DNA from: Bacteroidota bacterium
GTDB lineage: Bacteria > Bacteroidota > Bacteroidia > Flavobacteriales > Flavobacteriaceae
Direction of reading: 5' to 3'
NCBI GenBank assembly: GCA_024280635.1
Contig: JAJRPS010000002.1
Location: 1 to 64,000 of the forward strand
Length of the DNA stretch: 64,000 nucleotides
A program made the position numbers and the translations under genes. Numbering within the stretch: position 1 is the stretch's first letter; every line of letters starts with the position of its first letter. A model generated the notes under the pieces. The model was not told where the DNA came from and searched no databases. It saw only the letters and a program-made list of their open reading frames with translations. Below are positions 2 to 9,886 of the stretch, one piece after another.

Positions 2-1117
2 AGTGCACAATATCCTTGTGAAAATGGTACCGCAAACGGTTATCCTTGTAATGATTATGACTTAATGAGCCATTTAACTTTTGATGAATTAGGTTTTCCT
101 GGTGCAGAAGGCAATGATTCTTGGGGTTGGACAGATAGCACAACAGGAAAAGAATATGCCTTAATGGGTACCACAAAAGGGACTGCCTTTGTAGATATTT
201 CTGATTCAAACGATCCAATTGTACTCGGTACTTTAGCTACAGCAACGGTAACTAATATTTGGAGAGACATTAAAATTTATCAAGACCACGCTTTTATTGT
301 TAGTGAAGCAGCAGGTCATGGTATGCAAGTTTTTGATTTAACACGCTTGCGCAATGTAGCCAATCCGCCAGAAGTATTTACAGCAGACGCACATTATACT
401 GGTTTTGGAAAAGCACATAATATTGTAATTAATAAAGATTCAGGATATGCTTACGTTGTGGGTACGGATACTTTTTTAGGAAAAACACACATGGTAAACA
501 TTCAAAACCCAACAAATCCAGTTGGAGTGGGTGAAATACCAGATTATGCACATGATGCACAAGTATTAAACTATAATGGTCCAGATGCTGATTATGCGGG
601 CAGAGAAATTTTTATTGGTAGTAATGAAAATATTGTAGCCATTGTTGATATTACCGATAAAGCAAATCCAACGGTGATATCAACGATTACCTATCCAAAT
701 ATTGGTTATACACATCAAGGATGGTTTACGGAAAATAGAAAATATTTTATTGTAGGTGATGAATTAGATGAGTTAAACTTTGGAAACAATACCAGAACCA
801 TTGTTTTTAATTTTGAAGATTTAGATAACCCTGTTTTACATTTTGAATACACTACTAATAATGGTGCAATTGACCATAATTTATATACGGTAGGTAATTT
901 AATGTATCAAGCCAATTATACATCAGGAGTGCGTGTAGTAGATATTTCGGGTATTGATAATAGCACTTTTACTGAGGTTGGTTTTTTTGACACCTATCCA
1001 GCAAATGATAATACTAGTTTTCATGGTGCATGGAATGTATACCCATACTTTGTAAGTGGTAATATTTTAATAAGTGATATTGAAGGTGGTTTGTTTATTG
1101 TTAGAAAATCAATTTAA
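2..1117 (+). CDS. choice-of-anchor B family (LVIVD repeat) protein, 5' end cut by window start
   Basis: Frame is open from base 2 (SAQYPCENGTANGYPCNDYDLMSHL...) upstream of the listed ATG at 65. WGWTDSTTGKEYALMG, FVDISD and AHNIVINKDSGYAYVVG motifs; ends LFIVRKSI without a sorting domain. Confidence 0.85.
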   Translation, partial: SAQYPCENGTANGYPCNDYDLMSHLTFDELGFPGAEGNDSWGWTDSTTGKEYALMGTTKGTAFVDISDSNDPIVLGTLATATVTNIWRDIKIYQDHAFIVSEAAGHGMQVFDLTRLRNVANPPEVFTADAHYTGFGKAHNIVINKDSGYAYVVGTDTFLGKTHMVNIQNPTNPVGVGEIPDYAHDAQVLNYNGPDADYAGREIFIGSNENIVAIVDITDKANPTVISTITYPNIGYTHQGWFTENRKYFIVGDELDELNFGNNTRTIVFNFEDLDNPVLHFEYTTNNGAIDHNLYTVGNLMYQANYTSGVRVVDISGIDNSTFTEVGFFDTYPANDNTSFHGAWNVYPYFVSGNILISDIEGGLFIVRKSI

Positions 1118-2702: not shown

Positions 2703-2728
2703 ATACGTTGTAAAATAAAAAGTTGATT

Positions 2729-4072
2729 ATGGTAAAAATAATAAATACAGTGTTATGTTGCTCTTTATTTTTCATTTTAGGATGTAAAAGTGATGATGAC
2801 GCAGGTGTAACACCACCAACCACACAAATTACAAATACAGTCACTAGCATTTCAAATTACGGAGGATCAAGAAATGATGCATATACAGCTGTAGTTGCAA
2901 CTAATGATGGTGGATATATTGTTACAGGATATACCCAAAGTATAGACGGTGATATTACCGACAAAACAGTAGAAGAATTTGATTACTGGGCAGTAAAATA
3001 CGCTGCGGATGATACCTTACAATGGTCAAAAACTTATGGAGGCAGTCAAGATGATAGAGCCAGTCAAATTATACAAACTACTGATGGAGGTTATGCCCTT
3101 ATTGGATACAGTAAAAGTAACGACCTAGATGTTATTGGAAATCAAGGTCAAAAAGACTTTTGGATGTTAAAAATAGACGCTTCAGGAAGTATCTCTTGGC
3201 AAAAAGACTTTGGATTTAGTGGTAACGATAAAGGTATTACCTTAATACAAACAACTGATGATGGCTACCTTTTAGGTGGTATAATAGACGTTACCGCTTC
3301 TGGAGGTTTGGGAACCGATAAAAACCTGCAAATTAACCATGCAGGTGGCGATTATTGGGTAATTAAACTCGATGCATCTGGAATCAAACAATGGCGAAAA
3401 TTTTATGGTGGCGGACAAACCGACACCCTAAATGATATGATTCAAACTCCCGATGGTGGATTTTTATTGATAGGAGATTCTGATAGTACAGATGTTGATG
3501 TCAACAACAATAATGGAGGTTACGATTTTTGGGTAGTAAAAATCAGCAATACAGGAACACTTATTTGGGAAAAATCATACGGCGGAAGTGAAATTGAAAA
3601 AGGATATCACATTACCAAAACTAATGATAATAATTATATAGTTGTAGGTGATGCTCGTAGTACCGATGGAGATTTAACTAACTCAAAAGGAAATGCTGAT
3701 GTTTGGGTGCTTAAAATAAACGATGCAGGAAATATTATTTGGCAAAAAAATTATGGAGGCACTAGCTTTGATAGTGCAAGAAGTGTAATTACAGACACTA
3801 ATGGTGGATTTTTCATTACAGGAAGTTCACGTAGTTTAAATATAGATGCTTCATCAAATAAGGGTCAAAATGACGTTTGGATTCTTAAAATAGCTGAAAA
3901 CGGAAACTTAAAATGGCAAAAATCATTAGGAGGCTCACAAATAGATTTTGGATACGGAATTGCTCAATTACAAGACGGTAGTATTGTGGTTGCAGGAGAT
4001 ACTACAAGTGATGATTTTGATTTCCCAAATAATAAAGGATTTAAAGACGCATTAATTATTAAAATAAATTAA
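2729..4072 (+). CDS. lipoprotein with seven ~60-aa repeats, predicted beta-propeller
   Basis: Signal peptide with lipobox (ILGCKSDDD). Seven units of form YGGSxxDxAxxIxxTxDGGYxxxGxSxSxDxD...DxWVxKIxxxGxxxWxK. Confidence 0.75.
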   Translation: MVKIINTVLCCSLFFILGCKSDDDAGVTPPTTQITNTVTSISNYGGSRNDAYTAVVATNDGGYIVTGYTQSIDGDITDKTVEEFDYWAVKYAADDTLQWSKTYGGSQDDRASQIIQTTDGGYALIGYSKSNDLDVIGNQGQKDFWMLKIDASGSISWQKDFGFSGNDKGITLIQTTDDGYLLGGIIDVTASGGLGTDKNLQINHAGGDYWVIKLDASGIKQWRKFYGGGQTDTLNDMIQTPDGGFLLIGDSDSTDVDVNNNNGGYDFWVVKISNTGTLIWEKSYGGSEIEKGYHITKTNDNNYIVVGDARSTDGDLTNSKGNADVWVLKINDAGNIIWQKNYGGTSFDSARSVITDTNGGFFITGSSRSLNIDASSNKGQNDVWILKIAENGNLKWQKSLGGSQIDFGYGIAQLQDGSIVVAGDTTSDDFDFPNNKGFKDALIIKIN

Positions 4073-4122: not shown

Positions 4123-4875
4123 ATGAAAAAATATATTTTATTATTCGCAATTACAACAATATTATTTTCTTGCACAAAAGATGATGGGGTTGATTTTACA
4201 ACAACTAGTACACCAATAACCGTAACTTTTACTCAAAATTTTGATGGGGATGCTATTACAGTAAATGAATTTAACAATTTAAGTTATACAAATGCACATG
4301 GCGAAACACTAAGTTTAACACGTTTACGTTATTTAATATCTAAAATTCAATTGCATAAAGCAGATGGTACTACAATTTTATTAAGAGATTATAACTTAGT
4401 AGATGTTACCAATGCTACTAACCTAAGTTTTACTACTACTGATAATATTCCTACAGGCAACTACACGCTTAGTTTTGTTTTTGGTTTTGATGAAGTTGAT
4501 AATCAGCAAAATTATATTCCGCTAAACACTGTTTCTTGGAATTGGCCAGCAATGTTAGGTGGTGGTTATCATTTTATGCAAATGGAAGGAAAATATACCG
4601 CTTCAGGTAGCACTACTCAAGAAATATATGCTTATCACATGGGTACTGCACGTGTAAGTACAGGTGTTTTTGAAGTCAATCATTTTACGGTAAATTTAGG
4701 GGCAGTAACTATTGCTGAAAATCAAAATATAGAAATTAAAATGAATATTGCTGAATGGTATAAAAATCCGTTTATGTGGGATTTAACACAACTAAACAAT
4801 ACACTAATGCCAAATTATACAGCGCAAAAGCACATGCAAGAAAACGGAGCAACCGTATTTAGTTTAGGAAATTAA
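4123..4875 (+). CDS. MbnP-like family lipoprotein (putative copper-binding)
   Basis: Lipoprotein signal (ILFSCTKDDG). FTQNFDGDAI...LSLTRLRYLISKIQLH, VSWNWPAMLGGGYHFMQMEGKY and AYHMGTA motifs fit the MbnP family; followed by a diheme peroxidase gene. Confidence 0.75.
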   Translation: MKKYILLFAITTILFSCTKDDGVDFTTTSTPITVTFTQNFDGDAITVNEFNNLSYTNAHGETLSLTRLRYLISKIQLHKADGTTILLRDYNLVDVTNATNLSFTTTDNIPTGNYTLSFVFGFDEVDNQQNYIPLNTVSWNWPAMLGGGYHFMQMEGKYTASGSTTQEIYAYHMGTARVSTGVFEVNHFTVNLGAVTIAENQNIEIKMNIAEWYKNPFMWDLTQLNNTLMPNYTAQKHMQENGATVFSLGN

Positions 4876-4959
4876 TAGCTTTAATTTACCGATGCAATAA
4901 TATTAAAAATCAATATCGATTACCTTTGTACTAATAAAAATTATCCGTTTTCACGAGTA

Positions 4960-6036
4960 ATGAATATGAAAAAAATAATATACATAATACTAACCTTATT
5001 ACTGACTATTTCTTGTTCAAAAGATGATAGAGGGGTAGCTGCAGTATACGTCCCAACACCAGCACCTTTACAAATACCACAAGTATTTAGTGATAATATT
5101 TTACCACCTATTATTCCTCCTGGAAATCCACAAACGCTAGAGGGAGTGGCTTTGGGTAGAAAATTATTTTATGAGACCCTTTTATCTGCAGATAATACTC
5201 AATCTTGTGCTAGTTGTCATGCACCAGCAAATGCTTTTACAGATGATACCCAGTTTAGTGAAGGTATAGATGGTCTTTTAGGAGCCCGTAATTCGATGCC
5301 AATATTCAATGCCGCATGGAATTATGATAATAAATTCTTTTGGGATGGACGTGAATTTGGATTAGAAATGCAAGCAACAAACCCTGTTGAAAATCCAATA
5401 GAAATGCACAATACGTGGCAAAATGCAGTACAAGCATTACAAAACATAAGTGAATATTCGTTTTTATTTGAACAAGCATTTGGGAGCAGTCAAATCACTA
5501 AAATGAATGTGGTTAAAGCAATCGCGCAATTTGAACGCACACTTATTTCTGCCAATTCTAAATTTGATAGACATTTGCTGGGAACATATACCCTTACTAC
5601 TGCTGAACAAAATGGATTAAATGTGTTTATGGATGAGGCAGCTGGTGATTGTTTTCATTGTCATGGAAACCCCAATAACCCACTTTGGACAGATAATAAA
5701 TTTCATAATAATGCCCTTGATGCTACTTTTACTGATTTAGGATTAGGTGAAATAACCGGAGATCCAAATAATAACGGATGGTTCAAAGCACCTTCTTTGC
5801 GAAATTTATCTTTCACAGCACCATACATGCATGATGGACGGTTCAATACATTGCAAGAGGTTATCAACCATTATAGTGATGGTTTACAAAGCTCCACTAC
5901 TAACGATCCTTTAATGAAAAATGTTTCAGCAGGAGGAAATCATTTAACACCACAACAAAAAAGTGATTTATTGGCTTTTTTATTGAGTTTAAATGACACC
6001 GAATTTATTAACAACCCTAATTTTCAAGAACCATAA
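4960..6036 (+). CDS. cytochrome c peroxidase / MauG / MbnH-like diheme protein
   Basis: Two heme c motifs (CASCH, CFHCH), FFWDGRE, APSLRNLSFTAPYMHDGRFNTLQEVINHY; lipoprotein-type signal (ISCSKDD). Confidence 0.9.
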   Translation: MNMKKIIYIILTLLLTISCSKDDRGVAAVYVPTPAPLQIPQVFSDNILPPIIPPGNPQTLEGVALGRKLFYETLLSADNTQSCASCHAPANAFTDDTQFSEGIDGLLGARNSMPIFNAAWNYDNKFFWDGREFGLEMQATNPVENPIEMHNTWQNAVQALQNISEYSFLFEQAFGSSQITKMNVVKAIAQFERTLISANSKFDRHLLGTYTLTTAEQNGLNVFMDEAAGDCFHCHGNPNNPLWTDNKFHNNALDATFTDLGLGEITGDPNNNGWFKAPSLRNLSFTAPYMHDGRFNTLQEVINHYSDGLQSSTTNDPLMKNVSAGGNHLTPQQKSDLLAFLLSLNDTEFINNPNFQEP

Positions 6037-7665: not shown

Positions 7666-8709
7666 ATGGATACTTCAAAAAAAATAGTAATCGGAATTTC
7701 AATAGGAGATTTAAACGGAATAGGGTCAGAAATTATTTTAAACACTTTTGCTGATGCAAGAATGTTTGATTTTTGTACTCCAGTTGTTTTTGCATCATAT
7801 AAAACAATGCAATATTTAAAAAAGCATTTTAATGCTCCTACGCACATTCAACGAGCAGATGATTTAGAAAATTTACGAGATAATAAACTAAATGTAATTG
7901 AAGTTTGGGACGAAGATTTTAATTTTAATTTTGGTCAAGAAGACGAAAAAGCAGGCGAGTTGTCTATACAATCTTTAAGGGCTGCAACATTAGCTTTAAA
8001 AGAAGATAAAGTAGATGCGCTACTTACAGCACCTATAAATAAATCAAATATTCAATCAGAAAATTTCTCATTTCCTGGTCATACCGATTATTTAGCACAA
8101 GAGTTAGAGGGGAGTCCATTGATGTTTATGGTTTCGGATAACTTAAAAGTAGGATTGTTAACCGACCATGTTGCCGTAAAAGATGTTGCAAAAACCATTA
8201 CACCTACACGTATTAGAAGTAAAATAATTACCATAAATGATTCTTTGAAAAAAGATTTTGGAGTTCGAAAACCGAAAATTGCAGTATTGGGTATCAATCC
8301 ACATTCAGGAGATAATGGCGTTATTGGGAAAGAAGATGATGCTGTTTTGAAACCAACCCTTCAGGAAATGAATGATAAAGGTATTCTGGTATACGGTCCA
8401 TATGCTGCTGATAGTTTTTTTGGGTCGGATAATTATCATCAATTTGATGCAATTGTAGCATCATACCATGATCAAGGGTTAATTCCTTTTAAAACACTAA
8501 CCTTTGGTAGTGGTGTCAATTATACTGCTGGGTTAAACAAGGTGCGTACCTCACCAGATCACGGTACTGCTTATGAAATTGCAGGACAAGGAAAAGCAAG
8601 TATAACCTCTTTTAAGCAAGCGTTGTTTACTGCTATTGAAATAGTAAAACACCGTGAAGAGTATAATGAGTTAACAAAAGACGTATTAAAGAAGAGAAGA
8701 AAGATATAA
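7666..8709 (+). CDS. pdxA: 4-hydroxythreonine-4-phosphate dehydrogenase
   Basis: GISIGDLNGIGSEI, FPGHTDYLAQ, ASYHDQGLIPFKTL, TSPDHGTAYEIAG. Confidence 0.95.
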   Translation: MDTSKKIVIGISIGDLNGIGSEIILNTFADARMFDFCTPVVFASYKTMQYLKKHFNAPTHIQRADDLENLRDNKLNVIEVWDEDFNFNFGQEDEKAGELSIQSLRAATLALKEDKVDALLTAPINKSNIQSENFSFPGHTDYLAQELEGSPLMFMVSDNLKVGLLTDHVAVKDVAKTITPTRIRSKIITINDSLKKDFGVRKPKIAVLGINPHSGDNGVIGKEDDAVLKPTLQEMNDKGILVYGPYAADSFFGSDNYHQFDAIVASYHDQGLIPFKTLTFGSGVNYTAGLNKVRTSPDHGTAYEIAGQGKASITSFKQALFTAIEIVKHREEYNELTKDVLKKRRKI

Positions 8710-8784
8710 GCAAAAAAATGTTTATAAGGTTATGAATATAAAATAAAAGTTATATATTTGCCCGCTCAAAACTTTGTTTTTCAG

Positions 8785-9315
8785 ATGAAAGAGATGAATG
8801 TATATCAAATTCCTTTTACAGGATTAAAAGAAGGAAAACACAATTTTGAGTTTAACGTAAAAAACACGTTCTTTTTACATTTTGGTTATGAGGAGTTTAA
8901 TAGCTCTAATATTACGGTGCACTTAGTATTAAATAAAACGGCAACCATGATGGAATTAACATTTGCTGCAACAGGAAGTGTTAGTATTAATTGTGATGTC
9001 ACTAATGAGCCTTTTGATCAAAAAATAGATTCCAGTTTAGACTTAGTTGTGAAATTTGGATCTGTTTTTAATGATGAAAATGATGATTTGCTAATTTTAC
9101 CACATGGAGAATTTGAGGTAGCAGTACAGCAATACATTTATGAAATGATTGTGTTGTCAATACCAGTAAAAAGAGTACACCCAGGTATTGCAGACGGTAG
9201 TTTGCAATCTGAAATGTTAACCAAAATAAAAGAATACAGCGGAGAAAATAAAAAAGAAGAGGATCAAATTGACCCTCGTTGGAATAAATTAAAGAATCTA
9301 TTAACAGATAAATAA
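8785..9315 (+). CDS. DUF177 (YceD-like) protein
   Basis: Directly upstream of rpmF; C-terminus DPRWNKLKNLL is typical. ATG at 8785 preferred over TTG at 8758. Confidence 0.88.
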   Translation: MKEMNVYQIPFTGLKEGKHNFEFNVKNTFFLHFGYEEFNSSNITVHLVLNKTATMMELTFAATGSVSINCDVTNEPFDQKIDSSLDLVVKFGSVFNDENDDLLILPHGEFEVAVQQYIYEMIVLSIPVKRVHPGIADGSLQSEMLTKIKEYSGENKKEEDQIDPRWNKLKNLLTDK

Positions 9316-9323
9316 TATAGAAA

Positions 9324-9527
9324 ATGGCGCATCCTAAAAGAAAAATATCGAAAACAAGAAGAGATAAAAGAAGAACACATTACAAGGCAACTGTACCGCA
9401 AATAGCAACTTGCCCAACAACAGGTGAAGCTCACTTATATCATAGAGCACACTGGTTTGAAGGAAAATTATACCATAGAGGTCAAGTTTTAATTGACAAC
9501 TCTGTAGAAGAAGAATTAGTAGACTAA
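9324..9527 (+). CDS. rpmF: 50S ribosomal protein L32
   Basis: [22 protein letters not shown]... Confidence 0.97.
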
Positions 9528-9556
9528 ATTTTATAGTACTACTTTGTCATAGACGT

Positions 9557-9588
9557 TAAAAAAACTCTCATTTTTGAGGGTTTTTTTG
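9557..9588 (+). terminator. intrinsic terminator after rpmF
   Basis: AAAAAACTCTCATTTTTGAGGGTTTTTTT stem-loop with T-run. Confidence 0.8.
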
Positions 9589-9886
9589 CATATAAGTGTA
9601 TTTGCATTTTAATAATAACGTCCTATTTTAAAAGATGAGGTTAAAAGTAATATTATAATATTTTAAAATCGCCCCTAAACACAAGTTTATAAGGCGTTAC
9701 CCTTTTAAAGGATAAAGTTTTGCTGCAAAAATTTAAGTAATGAAACCTTTTTACCTGTCGTAATATGATTAAAAAAGTGGTTAATAATTTTTATATCTCT
9801 TAAAAAGAAGGTATTTTGCACTACTTTTTGAACAAAAAAAGATAAAAGCCAATTTTTTATTTTCTTTTTAAACAAAAAACTAAAAA

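Follow-up and report, generated by a model that had tools for sequence, protein, structure and literature searches.

A divergent MbnP/MbnH pair with an altered predicted copper site from a flavobacterial subfamily

Results

Organization of the locus

We analysed a 64,000-nucleotide stretch of DNA from a member of the Flavobacteriaceae (contig JAJRPS010000002.1), hereafter called the window. The beginning of the window carries the following genes and heme-related features.

65-1117, plus strand: choice-of-anchor-B protein (TIGR04312, 507.6 bits), open at the contig start
1249-2702, plus strand: second choice-of-anchor-B gene, broken by a frameshift near 1722-1737 and encoding a T9SS C-terminal sorting domain
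2723-4072, plus strand: beta-propeller-like lipoprotein (SBBP-like), directly upstream of MbnP, with C-K-S-D-D-D after the lipobox
4123-4875, plus strand: MbnP-family lipoprotein of 250 aa, lipobox Cys17 at 4171-4173, then C-T-K-D-D
4960-6036, plus strand: MbnH-type diheme enzyme of 358 aa, predicted lipoprotein, Cys19 at 5014-5016, then C-S-K-D-D
5206-5220, plus strand: heme c motif 1, CASCH (residues 83-87)
5650-5664, plus strand: heme c motif 2, CFHCH (residues 231-235)
5872-5874, plus strand: Tyr305, at the axial (sixth)-ligand position, where bacterial CcPs have Met

The original prediction, an MbnP-like lipoprotein followed by a diheme partner, thus corresponds to the two open reading frames at 4123-4875 and 4960-6036. 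The frameshift that splits the second choice-of-anchor-B gene could mark a pseudogene or an error of the draft-genome assembly.

Conserved gene order and distribution

Across 101 related loci, the choice-of-anchor-B gene was present in 91, the SBBP-like lipoprotein gene in 92, MbnP in 100 and MbnH in 98. Because MbnP and MbnH are so regularly present, and nearly always adjacent, their pairing is not a matter of chance. Window-type MbnP occurs in 18 of the 60 genomes of family f1 (the window's own included). A strong choice-of-anchor-B match without MbnP was seen in ten f1 genomes. Seven of them lack MbnP/MbnH but have the anchor-B and SBBP genes placed between ThiL and SufA, two (L133, L140) have these genes beside only one of the two markers, and in the last (L138) no SBBP gene was found. 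Since anchor-B/SBBP loci occur without the pair, MbnP/MbnH is a module that can be missing from the locus, and the idea of an obligate four-gene cassette is weakened accordingly.

It is possible, if somewhat doubtful, that the four genes encode a single machine at the cell surface, with copper or oxidised MbnP put to use by the beta-propeller-like proteins, an arrangement that would be compatible with the copper-site reading developed below. Indeed, the order anchor-B, SBBP-like, MbnP, MbnH was kept in 75 of the 78 loci with adequate flanks, with median intergenic gaps of 5-16 bases; 64 of these 75 lie between ThiL and Suf genes, and the order is also kept in the 11 in which one or both flanks are changed. 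All 18 f1 genomes with window-type MbnP likewise hold the other two genes. The nine loci just described, however, hold the first two genes without MbnP/MbnH, and neither an anchor-B nor an SBBP gene lies beside the nearest relatives of the window MbnP (L031, L032). Furthermore, inherited synteny may account for part of the shared position, since the anchor-B/SBBP pair sits at ThiL/SufA even without MbnP/MbnH. The linkage is therefore suggestive and is not proof of a shared function. Our literature search found no paper on choice-of-anchor B or on a 'metallo-mystery pair'.

The Pfam MbnP family PF20243 was detected in 51 of 99 relatives and in 39 of 148 Bacteroidota genomes. When we scanned with the MbnP subfamily of the window, 426 encoding stretches were found, and the titles of the best 80 of them name mostly Flavobacteriaceae; the window pair belongs to a large subfamily of the Flavobacteriaceae. 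Two Saprospiraceae MbnPs of the same subfamily (L038:903-1640 and L045:1017-1754) are followed by an AIR-synthase-type gene (PF00586, PF02769), with no adjoining MbnH.

Identity of the MbnP lipoprotein

The product of 4123-4875 contains the MbnP-like motifs VSWNWPAMLGGGYHFMQMEGKY and AYHMGTA on which the original prediction was based, and the assignment was borne out by both profile and fold. The protein scored 118.3 bits against PF20243 (cut-off 27; E 5.1e-34), and its AlphaFold2 model, built from a 95-row alignment, reached a mean pLDDT of 92.8. In a Foldseek search with this model, the only matches at E <= 0.001 were six chains of 7L6G, the MbnP of Methylosinus trichosporium (E 1.7e-7 to 7.7e-7, TMq 0.56-0.62), with 12-14% identity across the fold match. 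Membership in the MopE/CorA group was rejected on fold, as neither protein is among the PDB fold matches listed.

The divergence of the protein is evident at the sequence level. It scored 21.8 bits against NCBIfam TIGR04052, under the 140-bit equivalog cut-off, and it lacks the four-Cys motif of the older family name shown for 7L6G, its sole cysteine being the lipobox Cys17. Neither the window MbnP nor subfamily-rich profiles retrieved a relative in a PDB sequence search; a profile of canonical-type MbnP relatives was the only query profile to reach 7L6G (E 0.0037), with its first Trp aligned to the WNW of 7L6G.

Conserved residues and the predicted copper site

The residues considered here, all encoded on the plus strand, are as follows.

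4537-4539, plus strand: Trp139, leading Trp of W-x-W and candidate precursor of kynurenine
4543-4545, plus strand: Trp141, second W-x-W Trp, variable across the subfamily
4570-4572, plus strand: His150, subfamily-specific candidate copper ligand
4636-4638, plus strand: His172, candidate copper ligand common to all divergent MbnPs examined
4756-4758, plus strand: Trp212, conserved outside the WxW motif
4777-4779, plus strand: Trp219, almost invariant within the subfamily and a candidate for an alternative MbnH target

Residues were counted over 101 aligned subfamily members; the unit is the locus, and a few genomes enter more than once. Position 139 falls in the column of the first canonical WxW Trp; 92 members have W there, seven F and two M, the two M rows being the outlying proteins L129 and L130 with a single Trp in the motif. 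Among 17 divergent MbnPs, the position is W in 15. Position 141 is W in 55 members and V in 46. Both tryptophans of WNWP had been proposed as candidate sites, and these counts narrow the proposal to Trp139, which is conserved in the family alignment. Trp212 is retained in 93 of 101 members and Trp219 in 99, with Ile in L129 and L130, and Met229 is invariant. His150 was found in all 101 members, the corresponding position being mostly K/R in divergent canonical-type MbnPs, and His172 in 100 of 101 and in 17 of 17 divergent members. In L046, two MbnP paralogues lie in tandem (8126-8962 and 8977-9726), the first with Asn in place of His172.

According to Manesis et al. (2021), MbnH reportedly converts the leading WxW Trp of canonical MbnP to kynurenine, and this MbnP is said to bind Cu(I) through His, Met and solvent, with the kynurenine nearby. 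In our set of 14 canonical-type MbnPs, both Trp residues are invariant, a Met at position -2 relative to the first of them is nearly so, and the column of His172 holds an invariant His; 7L6G itself reads GMAWNW, with Met at -2. The window MbnP reads V-S-W139 and lacks this Met, which is also absent there from the subfamily. The kynurenine chemistry of the original prediction is plausible for Trp139, judging from these alignments, and the copper ligand set of the window MbnP probably differs from that of canonical MbnP. With the -2 Met absent and His150 present together with the nearly invariant His172, the subfamily may hold a His150/His172/kynurenine139 copper site, and in the secondary structure of the model both histidines lie at one end of what is probably a hairpin, with strands at 152-159 and 166-173.

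This predicted set of two His and a kynurenine resembles that of CorA of Methylomicrobium album, whose copper site comprises two His and a kynurenine along with a water (PMC3912023). The CorA/CorB and MopE/SACCP (Methylococcus capsulatus) systems also share with the window pair a MauG-like partner enzyme and a surface location, the latter predicted for the window MbnP. The Trp-x-His arrangement of CorA (Kyn62, His64), however, differs from that of the window MbnP.

Loss of the motif tryptophan in one clade

We mapped the WxW, WxV and FxV motifs on a tree of MbnP from whose alignment the motif columns had been removed; two changes suffice, one to WxV and one to FxV. The seven FxV loci (L089, L091, L096, L102, L103, L107 and L126) belong to Winogradskyella, Psychroserpens and one further genome, and all seven retain His150, His172, Trp212 and Trp219. 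Their MbnH keeps both CxxCH motifs in the six loci that could be checked and the PYMHDG...Y motif in five of these six, the motif not being matched in L103. Pairwise NG86 estimates for MbnH among five FxV loci gave dN of 0.08-0.22, much like WxV loci, and dS of 1.4-2.3, rough values with dS saturated, so that only constraint on the gene can be read from them. The low dN/dS at saturated dS indicates that MbnH is under constraint in these loci.

One reading of these data is that the MbnH of the subfamily oxidises another target: in MbnP, Trp219 and perhaps also Trp212, or else the beta-propeller-like lipoprotein encoded next to it. The FxV loci favour it, as the motif has no Trp there while the other candidate residues are preserved, as are the heme motifs of MbnH in six loci and its Tyr motif in five, and the dN of MbnH is low. 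Against it stand the retention of Trp139 in most of the subfamily and the roughness of NG86 at saturated dS, and we know of no precedent for Trp219 as the target of such an enzyme. We consider this reading quite unlikely for the subfamily as a whole. For the Winogradskyella lineage taken separately, it is slightly less improbable, though still rather unlikely, that MbnH continues to modify MbnP at Trp219 and/or Trp212, or another surface protein; if this is true, MbnH acts there despite Phe139, and the enzyme superfamily would gain a new target.

Identity of the diheme enzyme

The product of 4960-6036 matched Pfam CCP_MauG PF03150 at 191.6 bits and carries the two heme motifs CASCH and CFHCH, as described for a diheme CcP/MauG-type protein in the original prediction; the Cys and His of both CxxCH motifs are invariant in 53 aligned MbnH sequences. 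Its closest PDB match is 6E1C, the MbnH of M. trichosporium (sequence E 2e-49, fold TM 0.80). The NCBIfam MbnH model TIGR04039 (256.1 bits, curated cut-off 362.85) outscored the MauG model TIGR03791 (169.6 bits, curated cut-off 443.85), with both scores under the cut-offs. Aligning 58 diheme proteins put Tyr305 in a column that is Tyr in 6E1C and in nearly all MbnP-paired enzymes, and Met in 1IQC and two Bacteroidota CcPs. In the tree, the window enzyme sits among the MbnP-paired enzymes, and one branch with moderate support (87/84) splits these and 6E1C from the CcP side. It is highly improbable that the protein is an ordinary H2O2-reducing cytochrome c peroxidase with MbnP as a functionally unrelated neighbour: it does match PF03150 and is structurally close to CcPs, but the axial Tyr in place of Met and the grouping in the tree led us to reject this identity, and the near-constant pairing with MbnP also speaks against it. 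Among the MbnP-paired diheme enzymes, L013 and L169 deviate: the axial Tyr is replaced by F or L, and PYMHDG by PYGSFG.

The findings that the original prediction had named as contradicting it, namely a product of 4123-4875 outside MbnP, a family alignment lacking a conserved Trp, or clustering of the diheme protein with CcpA, were not obtained. The window genes are a true MbnP/MbnH pair of a divergent, widespread flavobacterial subfamily. The pair shares with that of M. trichosporium OB3b (7L6G, 6E1C) both folds, the adjacency of the genes, the W-x-W motif, an HxG-type His, two hemes c and Tyr at the axial-ligand position. Unlike OB3b MbnP, the window MbnP lacks Met at -2 of the first Trp, has gained His150 and has only the lipobox Cys; the pair as a whole is further distinguished by being predicted lipoproteins with different neighbours, by scores under the NCBIfam cut-offs, and by the absence of a detected mbn operon.

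Cellular context

Surface location was assessed from the residues after the lipobox Cys, an acidic tail being defined as at least two acidic residues at positions +3 to +6. Such tails were found in 85 of 95 MbnPs, 64 of 84 SBBP-like proteins and 35 of 84 MbnHs, against a background of 41 of 158 other lipobox ORFs from the same loci. The Bacteroidetes surface-export signal has the optimum C-X-K-(D/E)2-X in Capnocytophaga (PMC5080379), and both the window MbnP (CTKDD) and MbnH (CSKDD) fit it. Since acidic tails are common in MbnP and CTKDD fits this optimum, MbnP is likely surface-exposed.

In the genome of the window, no PF03150 protein was found besides the 4960-6036 product, and a long cytochrome c assembly protein is also encoded there. 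The methanobactin protein MbnB (TIGR04159) was not found in this assembly, which is 80% complete, so that its absence is provisional; MbnP/MbnH pairs outside methanobactin operons were known already in 2013 (PMC3621798).

Near MbnP, at least 12 of 78 loci with no SBBP gene in view encode a small protein bearing the motif C...CxGxC(H/Q)L, a lower bound as many of these loci are short, against 0 of 108 loci with SBBP. The 12 loci are L003, L007, L008, L009, L016, L031, L032, L148, L149, L193, L194 and L205; in 11 of them the gene lies upstream of MbnP on the same strand, and L031 and L032 group with the MbnP of the window. A Pfam scan of four of these proteins gave no family. MbnPH-like genes occur elsewhere in CruR-type, copper-related operons (PMC9426467), which like the window locus place MbnPH outside methanobactin operons; in this comparison, the small Cys-rich gene stands upstream in 11 other Bacteroidota MbnPH loci, L031 and L032 among them, and is absent from the window locus. 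The copper link of the window pair through these loci and operons is circumstantial.

Discussion

Taken as a whole, the data are best explained, with a probability that we put at roughly 60%, by a divergent MbnP/MbnH pair that makes a kynurenine-shaped copper(I) site. In the proposed mechanism, both proteins would be outer-membrane lipoproteins, MbnP probably being surface-exposed, and H2O2 would charge MbnH, which would then oxidise Trp139 of MbnP to kynurenine. Kynurenine139, His150 and His172 would shape a mononuclear copper(I) site that may serve copper acquisition or homeostasis, and His would take the place of the canonical second protein ligand, Met, giving a CorA/MopE-like ligand set on an MbnP fold. 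Kynurenine formation, H2O2 use and copper binding are what we infer for the window pair. Counting against this explanation are Phe139 in seven subfamily members, the two Saprospiraceae MbnPs without MbnH in the adjoining DNA, and conserved neighbour genes without a known copper role.

Several features of the subfamily are new here. The canonical Met is gone and His150 and His172 are present, suggesting an altered predicted copper site; in one clade, Winogradskyella and its kin, the predicted target Trp has been lost and MbnH kept; and most subfamily pairs follow genes for choice-of-anchor-B and beta-propeller-like proteins that are also found without the pair. Few proteins are known to have a kynurenine in their copper site, and the subfamily offers a predicted natural ligand swap from Met to His at a probable surface location. 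The series WxW, WxV and FxV, with the enzyme retained, lets one ask what role each Trp plays and what the real target of MbnH is.
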